Shown here in pieces: positions 2,165 to 9,032 of a DNA stretch of 22,702 nt; the first letter of the stretch is position 1; the number at the start of each line of letters is the position of its first letter. The stretch comes from a virus, in IMG/VR virus record IMGVR_UViG_3300003691_000056, positions 1-22,702 of that record; one strand, written 5' to 3'. The position numbers and the translations under genes are program-made. Below the pieces are notes generated by a model. That model worked only from the letters and a program-made list of their open reading frames with translations, was not told where the DNA came from and did not search any database.

Positions 2165-2395
2165 TTAGTTTTTTCCCTTGTGATTATTTACAAAAATTAG
2201 GGCTTCATCAAAGCTCAGTTTTTTACCCAAGTACTTCCTTTTTTCGCCATAACATTCAAAACGAAGCTTTGCAAAGTCTAAATCTTTTCTGGTAAAAACA
2301 GGGGTAATTCGTGGGTGTTTCCCAACAAAGCTTCTTCTTTGCAGCTCCATTGGGTGTGTTTTGAGTGTCTTTAATTCACCGGCTGTCATCATCAT
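2165..2395 (-). CDS. Small hypothetical protein, 76 aa
   Basis: This is an unknown, basic, probably soluble protein. The frame opens at GTG 2423-2425, but I place the start at ATG 2393-2395. That ATG overlaps the upstream TGA (2392-2394) in an ATGA junction, and a GGGAG element lies nine to ten bases upstream. Two further ATGs follow directly (MMM). The protein has a Lys/Arg-rich middle (KTHPMELQRRSFVGKHPR) and a C-terminus FVNNHKGKN. There is no recognisable domain. It belongs to the string of small genes between the zinc-ribbon gene and the clamp. Confidence 0.6.
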   Translation of the reverse strand: MMMTAGELKTLKTHPMELQRRSFVGKHPRITPVFTRKDLDFAKLRFECYGEKRKYLGKKLSFDEALIFVNNHKGKN

Positions 2396-3216
2396 CGTCG
2401 TTTTCTCCCGTATTCCTTCTGCCACGCATGACGTTCTAAATCACGAAACACTTGATCTAAAACAGGGGTTTTTAATTCAAGTTCCAAGATGTTACACGGC
2501 GCTACTTCTTCTTTGCATTTGGTACATGAATACCAATGATGTAACGCTTCATCTTCAAAAGATTCATCAGGTGCTTCAAAGTTAAGCATTCCCTGATACC
2601 CACAACCATACTCGTGGGATTTACACCAACCATAAACGGCGTTGGCTTTTAGGGTTCCCTTTGGATCAAAGTAGTCGGGGTTGTTATATTCAGGTTTCCA
2701 TGGAAGTAACGTGTGCGCGGGTTCACCCTCTTTTGTGCTATCTACTTTGTGTTCAAAACATGTTTTACATTTTGACACGCGCCACGTTCTTTCTTCATAA
2801 AGATATTGACGCCAAACGTGTAATTGATGCGCGCCATGATTACAGCGCATCGGTTCGGTTTTCCAACCATAACCAAAGCTTGGTGTTGCAAAAAACGTTC
2901 TCTCGCAACTATCACATCCGTATTCTTGCGCTTCACCTTCCTTTCGGGGGTCGATAGATTCCCACCAATCTTCCTGCTTAGTTTTACAGTATGGACAGAA
3001 TACTTCTTCCACATCGTCACAATCTTTATCGTAAGACTCCTGCATTAACACAGAAGGTCTTTCAACATCAACATTGTAGTCCGTAATCATTTCAGGTTTA
3101 CCTTCCCACCCTGAATTCCGAACCGCCACACCATTGATGTGGTACACCCGTTTCTTTTCGGCTTCATGTTCCGCGCGTTGTTCTTTGGTCATATCCCACG
3201 TGTTTAAATAGCTCAT
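2392..3216 (-). CDS. Multi-zinc-ribbon hypothetical protein, about 274 aa
   Basis: The protein carries a series of Cys/His pairs. C74-x2-C77 with C101-x2-C104 form a typical zinc ribbon. A second set uses C125, H127, H130 with C150-x2-C153. A third uses C198, H201, C205 with H226/H227, C231-x2-C234 and C241. Up to three metal sites are therefore likely. Such modules usually bind nucleic acid or proteins; I see no nuclease or methylase motif. The start is uncertain. An ATG at 3226-3228 is possible, but the ATG at 3214-3216 overlaps the TGA of a 25-codon ORF (ATGA), so I favour the shorter form. Neither start has a strong Shine-Dalgarno site, which fits translational coupling. Confidence 0.75.
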   Translation of the reverse strand: MSYLNTWDMTKEQRAEHEAEKKRVYHINGVAVRNSGWEGKPEMITDYNVDVERPSVLMQESYDKDCDDVEEVFCPYCKTKQEDWWESIDPRKEGEAQEYGCDSCERTFFATPSFGYGWKTEPMRCNHGAHQLHVWRQYLYEERTWRVSKCKTCFEHKVDSTKEGEPAHTLLPWKPEYNNPDYFDPKGTLKANAVYGWCKSHEYGCGYQGMLNFEAPDESFEDEALHHWYSCTKCKEEVAPCNILELELKTPVLDQVFRDLERHAWQKEYGRKRR

Positions 3217-3290
3217 GATAGCAACCATAAAACAATAGGGAGTGAAATAATTACAAACATTTCACATTCGTGATCTAGATAATCAAGCAT
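3213..3290 (-). CDS. 25-codon ORF encoding a hydrophobic peptide (possible leader)
   Basis: ATG 3288-3290 opens a 25-residue frame beginning MLDYLDHECEMF and continuing as a hydrophobic run (VIISLPIVLWLL) that could span a membrane. Upstream is a purine-rich AAAGAGAGAA resembling the ribosome sites of other genes in this operon. Its TGA (3213-3215) overlaps the ATG at 3214-3216 of the zinc-ribbon gene. The longer reading frame that contains it runs back through the tRNA gene and is not meaningful there. It may be a genuine micro-gene or a coupling leader. Evidence is moderate only. Confidence 0.4.
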   Translation of the reverse strand: MLDYLDHECEMFVIISLPIVLWLLS

Positions 3291-3324: not shown

Positions 3325-3401
3325 TGGTCGGGACGGTAGGATTCGAACCTACGACCAAGGGCATCCAAGGCCCCTACGCTACCAGACTGCGCTACATCCC
3401 G
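3325..3401 (-). tRNA. tRNA-Pro (anticodon UGG), CCA encoded
   Basis: Read on the minus strand, 77 bases fold as a complete cloverleaf. The acceptor stem is CGGGATG/CGTCCCG with one G-U. The D stem GCGC/GCGT encloses a loop containing GGT. The anticodon stem GGGGC/GCCCT carries the loop CTTGGAT, so positions 34-36 are TGG (proline, reads CCA and related codons). The T stem GTAGG/CCTAC encloses TTCGAAT. The discriminator A is followed by an encoded CCA (3325-3327). All canonical positions are intact, so it should be functional. It is co-oriented with the replication operon and lies 35 bases before the 25-codon ORF. Confidence 0.95.
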
Positions 3402-3569
3402 TTTCATAACTGTATTGGACGACCTAACATAATCCAGCTAAGTGACTGGTAATCACCTCTTAGGCTTTCTTATGACGGGAGCAGATCGTCTCCAACTTTG
3501 CCCCGCATTGTTCACATACTCTATGGTTACCAAACCATTACCCTTTGCAAAATTCTTGAATTCTGTTCA

Positions 3570-3629
3570 TCCTCTAGGTATCGGTATGGGGCCGATAAGT
3601 TAACCGGTTGAGGTACGGTTACTAGAGGA
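3570..3629 (-). ncRNA. Predicted three-way-junction structured RNA (60 nt)
   Basis: A perfect 8-bp closing stem TCCTCTAG/CTAGAGGA (3570-3577 with 3622-3629) encloses two perfect 6-bp hairpins. These are TATCGG/CCGATA (3579-3584 with 3592-3597, 7-base loop) and TAACCG/CGGTTA (3601-3606 with 3616-3621, 9-base loop). Only four bases at the junction are unpaired. Such compact three-way pairing is unlikely to be coding drift, as no gene covers it. The strand is chosen because the flanking genes and a TATAAT ending nine bases before it are on the minus strand, but the structure would form in either transcript. It lacks a terminal T run, so it is not a standard terminator, and it lacks the conserved cores of hammerhead or purine-riboswitch RNAs. 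Confidence 0.5.
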
Positions 3630-3637
3630 CTAAACCT

Positions 3638-3643
3638 ATTATA
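3638..3643 (-). promoter_or_regulatory. Possible -10 element (TATAAT) upstream of the structured RNA
   Basis: A perfect TATAAT occurs on the minus strand. Initiation about seven bases downstream would fall near 3631, immediately before the 8-bp closing stem of the predicted RNA. No good -35 hexamer is found at 16-18 bases spacing, so this is a weak call based on one hexamer and its position. Confidence 0.3.
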
Positions 3644-3690
3644 GATAACACCCCAATAGAATGCTTCCACGTTTCGGCCATGTGTTAATA

Positions 3691-5211
3691 CTAGTGCTTC
3701 TTTTCCCGTTCGTCAATTGATGGTTGCCATGGAAACGAATATTTTTTAGATGTTTTAGATTCAACGATATAAAGGTTGTGTTTTGCGCGGGTAACGCCAA
3801 CGTAAAAAACACGGTGCATTTCATCGGGAAACTGTTTGTATTCATCAAAACAACGTTTAGTCATATCCGACAATAAAACAACATTATCTGATTCACCTCC
3901 CTTTGCTGCGTGGATCGTGGATATTTTGATGCGTGGGGTCTTTTTAAGTGATTCCCCATGCCTTAGTACCTCCCTATAATAGTCACGGTCACGGGTTGAT
4001 ATACCAAGCAGAACATCAAACCATGCACCGGTTGCTTTTACGTTCATGTGTTTACGGATAGTTTCAAGACTAAAAACGGTATCATCGGTTGCTTTATCAA
4101 ATATTTTACAGTCGGTGGAGGCTTCTGGTATTAGTTCGATAATCTTTCGCGCATTCCATTTACAGACTTCCCCGCCTTTGTTCAACGTCGTCCAACCTTC
4201 GATAGCCTCCAAGTGGTCTTCATTAACAGAAAGCTTTCCTTCTCTGATGTATGCATAACCTAATTCACGAACCCTTTTTGTGAATGTGGACAATAGTTTT
4301 TTGTTTCGGGCCATCAATAACCATTCCCCTTTGCTGATATCCAAGGATTCAAAATCTTTGCTATGCTCTACTAACCCTTTTTCATCACGTGGGTTCCACG
4401 TTTTTGGCTGTCTATCATGGATCTGTTCAACGATTCCGTTTGCGAGTTCCCAAACCGCTTCAGGTAATCGGTAAGACTGGTGTAGTACTTCCGTTTCCCC
4501 TGGACGATTACGGAACAGTTCCGCCTCAGCCCCCGCCCATTTGTAAATCGCTTGGTCGTCATCCCCCGCCATATACATTCTATCCGCGTTCGCAAAAGCA
4601 CAATCAACCACACGCCATTGTAATGGTGATAAATCCTGTGCTTCATCAATGATAGCTACATCAACCGGGAGAACGTCTGTAAAGTTTTCCAACATATCCG
4701 TAAAATCAATCAAACCTTTTTGGTCTTTATATTTTTGAAGCACGCGTTGAAACTGCAATAACCTAGACCATTCTAATTCAACATTCAGTTGATAGTAGGT
4801 TTCATCTACAGAAGCCATTTTGTTTCGAGATAACCCTGTAATCAGGTTACATAGATCACCTACTTTATCTTTACCGGGAATACCGGACATAACATGATTG
4901 TTACTGGTGTGCTCCATGCCCAATAAATCAAAAAGCTCTTTCCAATGGCCATCATGCATAACTTCCCCCAAGCTTACACCCATAGCCCTGAAAGCTAATG
5001 AGTGAAGTGTTCTAAAATAGGGAAGGTCACCTTCTAACAAGTCAAACTTTTCAATAGCGCGTTCTTTTGCTTCTTCTGCACCTTTCTTTGTGAACGTAAC
5101 TAAAGCTATTCTGGAAGGGTCGGTTCCATTTTTTAATTCCTGTTCCATGATGCTCATTAACTGATGCGTTTTACCACATCCAGGGGGGCCGAATATTTTA
5201 ATACACTTCAT
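3691..5211 (-). CDS. UvrD/PcrA-like superfamily 1 DNA helicase
   Basis: The 506-residue protein contains the ordered SF1A motifs. Motif I is GPPGCGKT (8-15), motif Ia TFTKKGAEEA (39-48) and Ib around RTLHSLAF (67-74). Motif II is IIDEAQDL (187-194) and motif III GDDDQAIYKWAGA (216-228). SYRLP (246-250) corresponds to motif IV, STIHAAKGGESDNVV (431-445) to motif V, and VFYVGVTRAKHNLYI (468-482) to motif VI. These enzymes are ATP-driven 3'-5' DNA translocases. It is about 200 residues shorter than UvrD or Rep, implying reduced accessory 1B/2B subdomains, as in many phage versions. It begins three bases after the primase stop codon with AAGGCGAA upstream of ATG 5209-5211, so it is likely co-expressed. 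A role in fork unwinding or recombination is inference. Confidence 0.92.
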   Translation of the reverse strand: MKCIKIFGPPGCGKTHQLMSIMEQELKNGTDPSRIALVTFTKKGAEEAKERAIEKFDLLEGDLPYFRTLHSLAFRAMGVSLGEVMHDGHWKELFDLLGMEHTSNNHVMSGIPGKDKVGDLCNLITGLSRNKMASVDETYYQLNVELEWSRLLQFQRVLQKYKDQKGLIDFTDMLENFTDVLPVDVAIIDEAQDLSPLQWRVVDCAFANADRMYMAGDDDQAIYKWAGAEAELFRNRPGETEVLHQSYRLPEAVWELANGIVEQIHDRQPKTWNPRDEKGLVEHSKDFESLDISKGEWLLMARNKKLLSTFTKRVRELGYAYIREGKLSVNEDHLEAIEGWTTLNKGGEVCKWNARKIIELIPEASTDCKIFDKATDDTVFSLETIRKHMNVKATGAWFDVLLGISTRDRDYYREVLRHGESLKKTPRIKISTIHAAKGGESDNVVLLSDMTKRCFDEYKQFPDEMHRVFYVGVTRAKHNLYIVESKTSKKYSFPWQPSIDEREKKH

Positions 5212-5213
5212 TT

Positions 5214-6740
5214 CTAGAATTCGCCTTCTGGTAGTTCAGGGTCTTTCGTATCAATAGCGTTTAGATAGGTTTCACTTAATGTCCACACCCGTTGGTTACG
5301 GCTATTACCAATGGATAGCTGTTTAGCTTCACCACCCATTCTACGCAATTCAGCCCAAACTTCACTTCCGCTTAAGGATATTCGATGTTGAGAAAGATAT
5401 TCTATAAACTTGTTGCCAACAAAATGCACAAGCCCCTCTTCCACCCACACCATTGATTTTGTTACATCCGCCCTTTCACGTGCGCGGGGTCGATTTATCA
5501 AGAAGTCTTCCACATAATAAGCCAGTTGGCCATTGTTCGTGATTTCTTCCGGTGCGGCGATGATTTCAACACTTTCCATCAGCTCACCTATTTTCTTCAA
5601 CCAAATAGGCTGCTTTGCAACACCATGTACTTTGTTCAATCTTTCTAAGATCATTTTTTGGTACAAAGTTTGATTCATTAATTGATCCGTATTACATTCT
5701 AAACGGTCACCTTCCACACCTATGATCCAAATAGGGGGCTCAGTCATAATCTTTTGTATGTTCTCAGGAAACACAGGGGCCATTAACGTAAGTGTAGCAC
5801 CACCCACACCGAATTCTGCTTTTTTGCATATCGTTTTATTACAGAATTGTTGAATAGGTGGGGTGTTGCATGAATAAAAATAGTCTTTTCTGTTAATGGA
5901 TTTAACAACATCAATAACTTCTTTGTTGGTTAACGCGGGGTTAATGTACTGTGCGTTAAATTCATTGGCTTTAGCTTCCCAACTATCCGGCCAACGTTGT
6001 TTACAATACACAGCGAAATTGTACATTGCATTGTTTCGGCCCCCTTCACCAACGGTTTGTTGTGCAAGTGCAACCAAACAAGGTGGCGCACCCTGCAACA
6101 TATCATTAACTTCAGGGATGATATTTATCTTGTAGAAATCTTCTGGCGTTAACCTTTTTTCCCAAGCGTGTTCAATGAACTGTTCCAGTTCTGCGGGTTC
6201 CTCGTCAATAATTGCATAGCGGTTTGTTAGTTCTGAATCACAGTAAGGAATATTAATCCAGTTCCCCACATCTTTATCACTTGCAAGGTTCCGTTGTTTA
6301 GGGAATATTTCTACCCCTGGATAGCCTAGCTCTACTGCAATCATTGACATTGTATCTAGCATGTCACCAGCGGGTATTGGTTCCGTTAAAAACAGGTAAC
6401 AATGCGCCCCACCGGATTTACTTCGACAAATAACGAGGGGGAGCTTTAAACGTTTCGTCTCACGTTCTAATACGGCGTGATTAGTTGCCCCGTTATATTC
6501 ATCAATATCTATAACACCAAAAGAACACGTACTATCTTCTCTAATCGGTACAACACCAATGGGGGTTTTTCCGCTTAGATGGTTTATGTATTTTTGACGT
6601 GTTAGTTCTTCATTTACCGTTTGAGCTTTGCCGCCAACTTTCCCGTTGGCCGCTGTTGATCCTAATCTATAAATTCCATGTGCTCTTTTTAAACCAGTGT
6701 ACAAAGAAATAAATCTATCAAGAATTTCTTTTTTGTCCAT
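5214..6740 (-). CDS. Archaeo-eukaryotic-type primase (TOTE-like AEP)
   Basis: The N-terminal half matches the AEP primase/polymerase fold seen in TOTE-type and phage primases. Motif I is GVIDIDEY with metal ligands D78 and D80, motif II CRSKSGGAHCYLF with S109 and H113, then GYPGVEIFPKQ (139-149) and GNWINIPY (159-166). A helical region (about 230-285, GRNNAMYNFAVYCKQ onward) resembles a PriCT-type domain. It is followed by cysteines C291, C300 and C305, which could bind zinc. The remaining 190 residues are unassigned; no helicase Walker motif is present, so this is a primase without a fused helicase. It would make primers for phage replication, with unwinding by separate helicases encoded nearby. 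The start ATG 6738-6740 has AAGGAA upstream. A terminator hairpin lies between this gene and the upstream SSB-like gene. Confidence 0.85.
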   Translation of the reverse strand: MDKKEILDRFISLYTGLKRAHGIYRLGSTAANGKVGGKAQTVNEELTRQKYINHLSGKTPIGVVPIREDSTCSFGVIDIDEYNGATNHAVLERETKRLKLPLVICRSKSGGAHCYLFLTEPIPAGDMLDTMSMIAVELGYPGVEIFPKQRNLASDKDVGNWINIPYCDSELTNRYAIIDEEPAELEQFIEHAWEKRLTPEDFYKINIIPEVNDMLQGAPPCLVALAQQTVGEGGRNNAMYNFAVYCKQRWPDSWEAKANEFNAQYINPALTNKEVIDVVKSINRKDYFYSCNTPPIQQFCNKTICKKAEFGVGGATLTLMAPVFPENIQKIMTEPPIWIIGVEGDRLECNTDQLMNQTLYQKMILERLNKVHGVAKQPIWLKKIGELMESVEIIAAPEEITNNGQLAYYVEDFLINRPRARERADVTKSMVWVEEGLVHFVGNKFIEYLSQHRISLSGSEVWAELRRMGGEAKQLSIGNSRNQRVWTLSETYLNAIDTKDPELPEGEF

Positions 6741-6766
6741 CCTGATTCCTTAATTGATAGGGTTAA

Positions 6767-6793
6767 AAAAGGGCTGTGGAAAACAGCCCTTTT
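6767..6793 (-). terminator. Rho-independent terminator, possibly bidirectional
   Basis: An 11-bp perfect inverted repeat AAAAGGGCTGT/ACAGCCCTTTT (6767-6777 with 6783-6793) has a 5-base loop. Read on the minus strand, the GC-rich part is followed by a run of six Ts (rc of 6765-6770); read on the plus strand it is followed by TTTTATTT. It lies in the 78-base gap after the SSB-like gene, so it would end or attenuate the early message before the primase. Confidence 0.85.
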
Positions 6794-6818
6794 ATTTGTC
6801 ACTTATAAAGTGTCAGTC

Positions 6819-8516: not shown

Positions 8517-8561
8517 TTTCTAAATTCTCGCTTTCTAGTTGATTCGTTTGTGACTGAACCA

Positions 8562-8589
8562 AGTATAAGCGCTAACCAAATAAGCGCAA
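8562..8589 (-). promoter_or_regulatory. Candidate leftward promoter for the replication operon
   Basis: On the minus strand TTGCGC (8584-8589) and TATACT (8562-8567) are separated by 16 bases, matching sigma-70 elements at 3/6 and 5/6 positions. Initiation would be about 40 bases before ATG 8516. A direct repeat ATAAGCGC overlaps both elements with 15-base spacing, so a regulator could bind here. Confidence 0.45.
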
Positions 8590-8737
8590 GTCTAGTATTA
8601 ACAAAGTTTTTGTGTTATCACGCGCGCCAACATATGCGTGTGTGCGAAGATAATTTTCAGGACAGGGATTTTCACCCGCCATAAGGTCTTAAAACACCTG
8701 TAAACTCAATGACTTAGACTATTTTGTAATTCTTGTT

Positions 8738-8768
8738 CAATACCGGTAATATCGCTGCTACTTATTGG
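8738..8768 (+). repeat. Imperfect direct repeat, copy A (with TACCGGTA palindrome)
   Basis: This unit begins CAATACCGGTA, then ATATC, and ends CTTATTGG. It matches copy B at 8823-8850 apart from a few small gaps and substitutions. Both contain the 8-bp palindrome TACCGGTA (8741-8748 here). Starts are 85 bp apart. Candidate operator or iteron. Confidence 0.6.
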
Positions 8769-8822
8769 TGGTATTTTGTACCTGCTACCATGCAACCCAC
8801 GTATCCTGTACCTTCTAGAGCT

Positions 8823-8850
8823 CAATACCGGTATATCACTAACTTATTGA
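8823..8850 (+). repeat. Imperfect direct repeat, copy B (with TACCGGTA palindrome)
   Basis: This second unit begins CAATACCGGTA, then TATC, and ends CTTATTGA. The palindrome TACCGGTA is at 8826-8833. The end of the unit overlaps a TTGACC hexamer (8847-8852), a possible -35 element although no good -10 follows it. Same family as copy A. Confidence 0.6.
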
Positions 8851-8935
8851 CCAGATTTACTAAAAAATTTTTCTTCCCACGCGTACGTAGGGTATGCGCG
8901 CGACCTGCACGCGCAGTTATACTAAGACCAACACT

Positions 8936-8964
8936 TTGTAAATACTTTGAAGAAAAAATATTTA
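8936..8964 (+). promoter_or_regulatory. Candidate rightward promoter for the SNF2-helicase operon
   Basis: TTGTAA (8936-8941) and TATTTA (8959-8964) are separated by exactly 17 bases; each matches the sigma-70 hexamer at 4/6 positions. The spacer is A-rich. Initiation near 8971 would leave a leader of about 60 bases before ATG 9033. A second possible -10, TATACT at about 8919-8924, has no matching -35. Confidence 0.4.
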
Positions 8965-9032
8965 TACGGTACCACCCCTTTTTTTGAGCGTTTAAAATAT
9001 GCTTAGAAATTCAGAAATCAAAAAGGAACCAC

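Follow-up and report, generated by a model that had tools for sequence, protein, structure and literature searches.

A compact three-way-junction fold between the helicase and tRNA-Pro genes of an uncultured siphophage, possibly a structured transcript spacer

A 60-nt stretch on the minus strand of the window (the whole 22.7-kb virus record that was analysed) forms three perfect Watson-Crick helices, one of 8 bp and two of 6 bp, which leave four junction bases unpaired, and one tentative reading, to which we give a probability of about 35%, is that the fold serves as a cis-acting structured spacer in the transcript joining the helicase and tRNA genes, where it would block exonucleases or guide processing. 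Three observations speak for this reading: the 20-pair fold is exact, and chance would rarely produce that exact form; a tRNA needing release from the transcript comes next; and the sense-strand fold stays well defined whether 60 nt or as much as 1.2 kb of sequence is folded. That the fold is fortuitous has almost the same probability. The searches brought up no related copy, and the fold is presented as a modest lead and not as a discovery.

The window derives from an uncultured siphophage with a Yuavirus-like tail type. Its tail genes are nearest to those of Pseudomonas YuA-like siphophages (~37% identity) and its replication proteins to those of phage DSL-LC04 and others (34-40% identity); the lineage is accordingly without close relatives in the collections. 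Read along the minus strand, the gene order is a gp34-like gene, a terminator, an AEP primase, a UvrD-type helicase, the gap containing the fold, tRNA-Pro and a 278-aa protein (Table 1). The terminator, AAAAGGGCTGTTTTCCACAGCCCTTTT, occupies the gap at 6741-6818 between the gp34-like and primase genes, with A and T runs flanking its stem and a fold z-score of about -5 on both strands. The 278-aa protein (2392-3228, minus) is cysteine-rich with many cysteine pairs, and has neither a Pfam match nor a relative in the phage collection. ARAGORN and Rfam report the tRNA-Pro as the only tRNA in the window, and a degenerate tRNA or tRNA remnant was rejected as a reading of the fold.

Table 1. Coordinates of the fold, its helices and neighbouring features in the window
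Feature	Position	Strand	Remarks
tRNA-Pro (TGG)	3325..3401	minus	168 nt downstream of fold
Gap holding the fold	3402..3690	minus	289 nt; no convincing gene
Three-way-junction fold	3570..3629	minus	60 nt
P1 3' strand CTAGAGGA	3570..3577	minus	includes AGAGGA purine run
P3 hairpin TATCGG-(CCCCATA)-CCGATA	3579..3597	minus	
P2 hairpin TAACCG-(TACCTCAAC)-CGGTTA	3601..3621	minus	stacked directly on P1
P1 5' strand TCCTCTAG	3622..3629	minus	pairs with 3577-3570, 8 bp
TATAAT, -10-like hexamer	3638..3643	minus	without -35, without extended -10
UvrD/Rep-type helicase gene	3691..5211	minus	ends 61 nt upstream of fold
Near-symmetric intrinsic terminator stem	6767..6793	minus	upstream of primase-helicase genes

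Positions 3629-3570 read, on the minus strand, TCCTCTAG TAACCG TACCTCAAC CGGTTA ACT TATCGG CCCCATA CCGATA C CTAGAGGA, and the three nested helices with four junction bases described in the original prediction are exact on these letters. P2 pairs 3621-3616 with 3606-3601 (6 bp, 9-nt loop), P3 pairs 3597-3592 with 3584-3579 (6 bp, 7-nt loop), and the junction bases number zero between P1 and P2, three between P2 and P3 and one between P3 and P1 (0/3/1). The final A of the P1 3' strand doubles as the A of an ATG, and in a longer transcript a ninth pair (G-U) is added to P1. Within the helices there are no G-U pairs, and because all 20 of the 20 pairs are Watson-Crick, both strands of the stretch can fold.

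The minus-strand fold has a predicted stability of -20.4 kcal/mol (z -4.4), with the minimum free energy (MFE) and centroid structures both equal to the three-helix fold, and the plus-strand fold has one of -24.8 kcal/mol (z -3.9); the fold's stability was matched by 0 of 200 shuffles. The two strands differ in how well the fold is defined. On the minus (sense) strand the mean probability of the 20 pairs was 0.95-0.97 in contexts of 60-1200 nt, versus 0.68-0.81 on the plus (antisense) strand, and the genes on either side of the fold are encoded on the minus strand as well. These pair probabilities, together with the strand of the flanking genes, are modest evidence that sense RNA is the relevant molecule, and they agree with the earlier placement of a compact junction on the operon strand. 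The lack of internal G-U pairs is neutral in this respect, or slightly favours a DNA-level dyad. As a whole, the 289-nt gap is not unusually structured relative to its shuffles (z -1.2 on the minus and +0.3 on the plus strand), and the three-way fold is present in both its MFE and centroid structures.

As a structured spacer, the fold would act as follows. A minus-strand transcript would run from the primase and helicase genes through the fold and into tRNA-Pro, and the 60-nt stretch would then fold into a 14-bp coaxial stack of P1 and P2 with P3 at its side. Being compact and closed, such a structure might resist exonucleases as a mechanical, passive block, and it could also show nucleases where the helicase mRNA ends and the tRNA precursor begins, the place at which they would cut. 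Structured stability elements of intergenic regions and 5' leaders, including 5' stem-loops, REP-like 3' barriers and phage processing hairpins, are alike in placing a compact closed fold in a polycistronic spacer, here beside a tRNA needing processing. Such elements are usually simple hairpins, whereas the present fold is a predicted three-way junction. For an RNase III site, 14 bp of stacked helix is short.

Other comparisons are with RNAs that are built on junctions. Hammerhead ribozymes, purine riboswitches and S15 leader sites likewise combine three helices with a small junction, but the conserved core of each is missing here. Moreover, the predicted P1/P2 stack, together with a linker from P3 to P1 that is shorter than the one from P2 to P3, presumably places the fold in another junction family than the hammerhead and purine riboswitch. 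The phi29 pRNA is also a phage-encoded RNA with a three-way junction, but it is about twice as long and works in the packaging motor of phi29-like phages, whereas the window is from a Yuavirus-like siphophage; Rfam gave no match for the fold. The view that the fold belongs to no nameable RNA class is upheld by Rfam, which returned nothing even at E<=10 over 3400-3750 and, for the whole window, tRNA-Pro as the sole family match by the gathering threshold. There is a slender chance that the fold represents a new class of small phage RNA, a three-way junction peculiar to this lineage, which sits between helicase and tRNA genes and stops exonucleases or directs processing. If the spacer reading holds, phage transcripts would gain one more small structured element, in which a three-way junction instead of a hairpin would guard a tRNA precursor. 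As a single-copy prediction without relatives, its main use is as a query for closer phage relatives found in future.

The strongest competitor is that drifting spacer DNA has come by accident to allow a neat three-armed fold, which was then singled out among many windows, a possibility that is only slightly less credible than the spacer itself. Two structural classes were counted in sequence simulated from an order-1 Markov model of the window. The stricter, exact class (Watson-Crick helices of 8/6/6, at most 4 junction bases, loops of up to 10) occurred 0 times in 163.4 Mb, and a uniform-base estimate puts it at ~5e-5 per window; the relaxed class (7/5/5, junction <=4, loops <=13) occurred 86 times, or ~0.012 per window. 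These chance figures refer to a single window, the number of windows originally scanned lying outside them. The absence of the exact geometry from 163 Mb of simulated sequence argues against a fortuitous origin, as does the location of the fold in non-coding DNA, a minor share of the window. On the other hand, the relaxed class at ~0.012 per window would be expected to turn up by chance once some hundred windows are scanned. By local z-score, the fold ranks 11th of 4528 strand-positions in the window, with ten others scoring better, so it is the geometry and not the stability that is unusual. The geometry is uncommon for one window, yet within reach of a many-window scan. The z-score rank, the unremarkable gap and the lack of homologues all count against a structured spacer, and all-Watson-Crick pairing would fit a DNA-level dyad equally well.

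Searches for relatives also bear on a fortuitous origin, as nothing similar was found in 142 loci of helicase and primase relatives (1.29 Mb). Alignment scans had yielded 80 helicase and 80 primase relatives with identities of at most ~42%; next to the helicase relatives the following gene mostly begins directly and no comparable gap was recognised, and scans with the helicase, the 278-aa protein and the primase as single proteins gave no homologue of the fold. A descriptor search of the 1.29 Mb turned up a single AT-rich case, in two registers at one place, which is ascribed to chance, and an equal-size Markov control likewise gave one. When the gap was compared by BLASTN with 50,697 phage records and 72,556 plasmid records, short chance matches alone were returned. 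In exact-motif scans, three of viral contigs and one of genome contigs, no sequence formed the whole fold; one of the four gave a single match, within a reading frame on a contig that is unrelated, and another of them gave 40 matches versus an estimated ~30 expected, none of the 40 folding. The covariance search proposed for the 60-base fold likewise failed to uncover homologues: with a model built from the single 60-nt sequence, the window alone scored well, the 142 loci gave nothing, and matches in 369 genomes (from the class of an Erwinia contig, a guessed host class) were at chance level. The best of these had E=5e-4 per genome, or ~0.2 when corrected for the number searched, left P3 unaligned and lay inside a reading frame. 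Rfam, the phage and plasmid BLAST searches, the motif scans, the relatives' loci and the 369 genomes thus yielded neither a homologue nor, in consequence, any covariation. In this weak sense the outcome that the original prediction named as speaking against it, a lack of homologues that keep the helices, was observed, but the result is not proof of absence for close homologues since the collections may omit records very near the window. A keyword search of the literature gave no paper matching the fold.

Two partial resemblances emerged from these scans. Two T7-like phage contigs, L126 and L127, share TATCGG...CCGATA..CCTAGAGGA with the fold and were rejected as homologues; they are without the P1 5' strand and may hold a small open frame there. 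Over ~125 nt (L126 ~873-1000; L127 ~5685-5815, minus) the two contigs are near-identical to each other. This stretch is placed differently relative to neighbouring genes, might code for a basic peptide of 35 aa (MTDKPRGKVSKSKRADTHHKFGIPVSIRPQYTSGR) and has no match in Rfam or the phage collection. In a further contig, L196, a long hairpin at 3735-3769 (TCCTCTA...TAGAGGA) directly precedes a ribosome-binding site and ATG; that it has closing-helix letters in common with the fold is probably due to selection by the search pattern.

It is also conceivable, if unlikely, that the structure functions as DNA, that is, as a cruciform or composite operator on double- or single-stranded phage DNA, recognised by a regulator or recombinase or serving as a secondary replication site. 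Its pairing is perfectly Watson-Crick on both strands, each of which also folds as single-stranded DNA (z -4.6 to -5.5), and P2 carries AACCGGTT, which loosely resembles TACCGGTA, the core of a repeated sequence from the window's divergent control region. The better-defined fold is nevertheless that of the sense strand, there are no iterons nearby, and ACCGGT is not enriched in the window (9 versus 5.6 expected). Moreover, GC skew and repeats place the likely control or origin region at 8.5-10 kb, for which reason the fold was rejected as the main replication origin; an integron attC site was likewise rejected, its core motifs being absent by eye. The divergent region itself (8517-9032, 516 nt), likely a control or origin region, holds longer inverted repeats and an exact 12-nt repeat, TCAATACCGGTA, at 8737-8748 and 8822-8833, 85 nt apart. 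The 11-nt core of this repeat occurs twice, versus none in shuffles.

Little of the window is non-coding, and the gap is the sole large non-coding one of its gene block. It was treated as non-coding because none of its three small frames is convincing, and the fold does lie, as claimed, in a stretch without a gene. The first frame (3537-3463, minus; WFGNHRVCEQCGAKLETICSRHKKA), downstream of the fold, encodes a CxxC...CxxH zinc-binding pattern, has no start codon and follows an in-frame TAA; its codon score is at wrong-frame level, and the phage collection contains no relative of its 25-aa version. A small gene that is broken, or one that depends on a frameshift, is conceivable, with codon usage unsupportive. 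The second frame, of 19 codons (3681-3622; MAETWKHSIGVLSIIGLVL), has its stop inside the P1 5' strand, and the third, of ten codons, begins with the final base of P1. From this arrangement a role in translational control can be imagined, in which P1 would hide the AGAGGA of its 3' strand and a ribosome finishing the 19-codon frame would open it. We consider this quite improbable: the ATG abuts AGAGGA with no spacer and opens just ten codons, the zinc-binding frame downstream is startless, and the 19-codon frame lacks a good ribosome-binding site.

The original suggestion that the fold could form the 5' end of an RNA behind TATAAT is weak. Eight bases separate the hexamer from P1. At spacers of 15-19 the -35 hexamer matches at 0-2 of 6 positions, ATC instead of TG precedes the hexamer, and a promoter scan did not list the site. 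Promoter-like sites are fewer in the region than in shuffles, and TATAAT itself occurs nine times in the window, this copy included, versus 19 expected. Since -35 and extended -10 are both missing, the hexamer is all that marks the proposed start site, and it hints only weakly at a promoter; of the sequence features expected if the fold stabilised an RNA 5' end at a sigma-70 start, neither was present. The absence of a terminator T run was confirmed, none following the fold on either strand, and an intrinsic terminator was dismissed for this reason. Least probable of all is an independent small phage RNA starting at ~3631 with a role in trans, for which TATAAT is suitably placed (start at 3630-3631) and for which there is no -35, extended -10, terminator after the fold or homologue.

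Elsewhere in the window, a 15-nt inverted repeat (1176-1217; 93% complementary, 12-nt loop) lies inside a minus-strand reading frame and ranks among the window's most stable folds.
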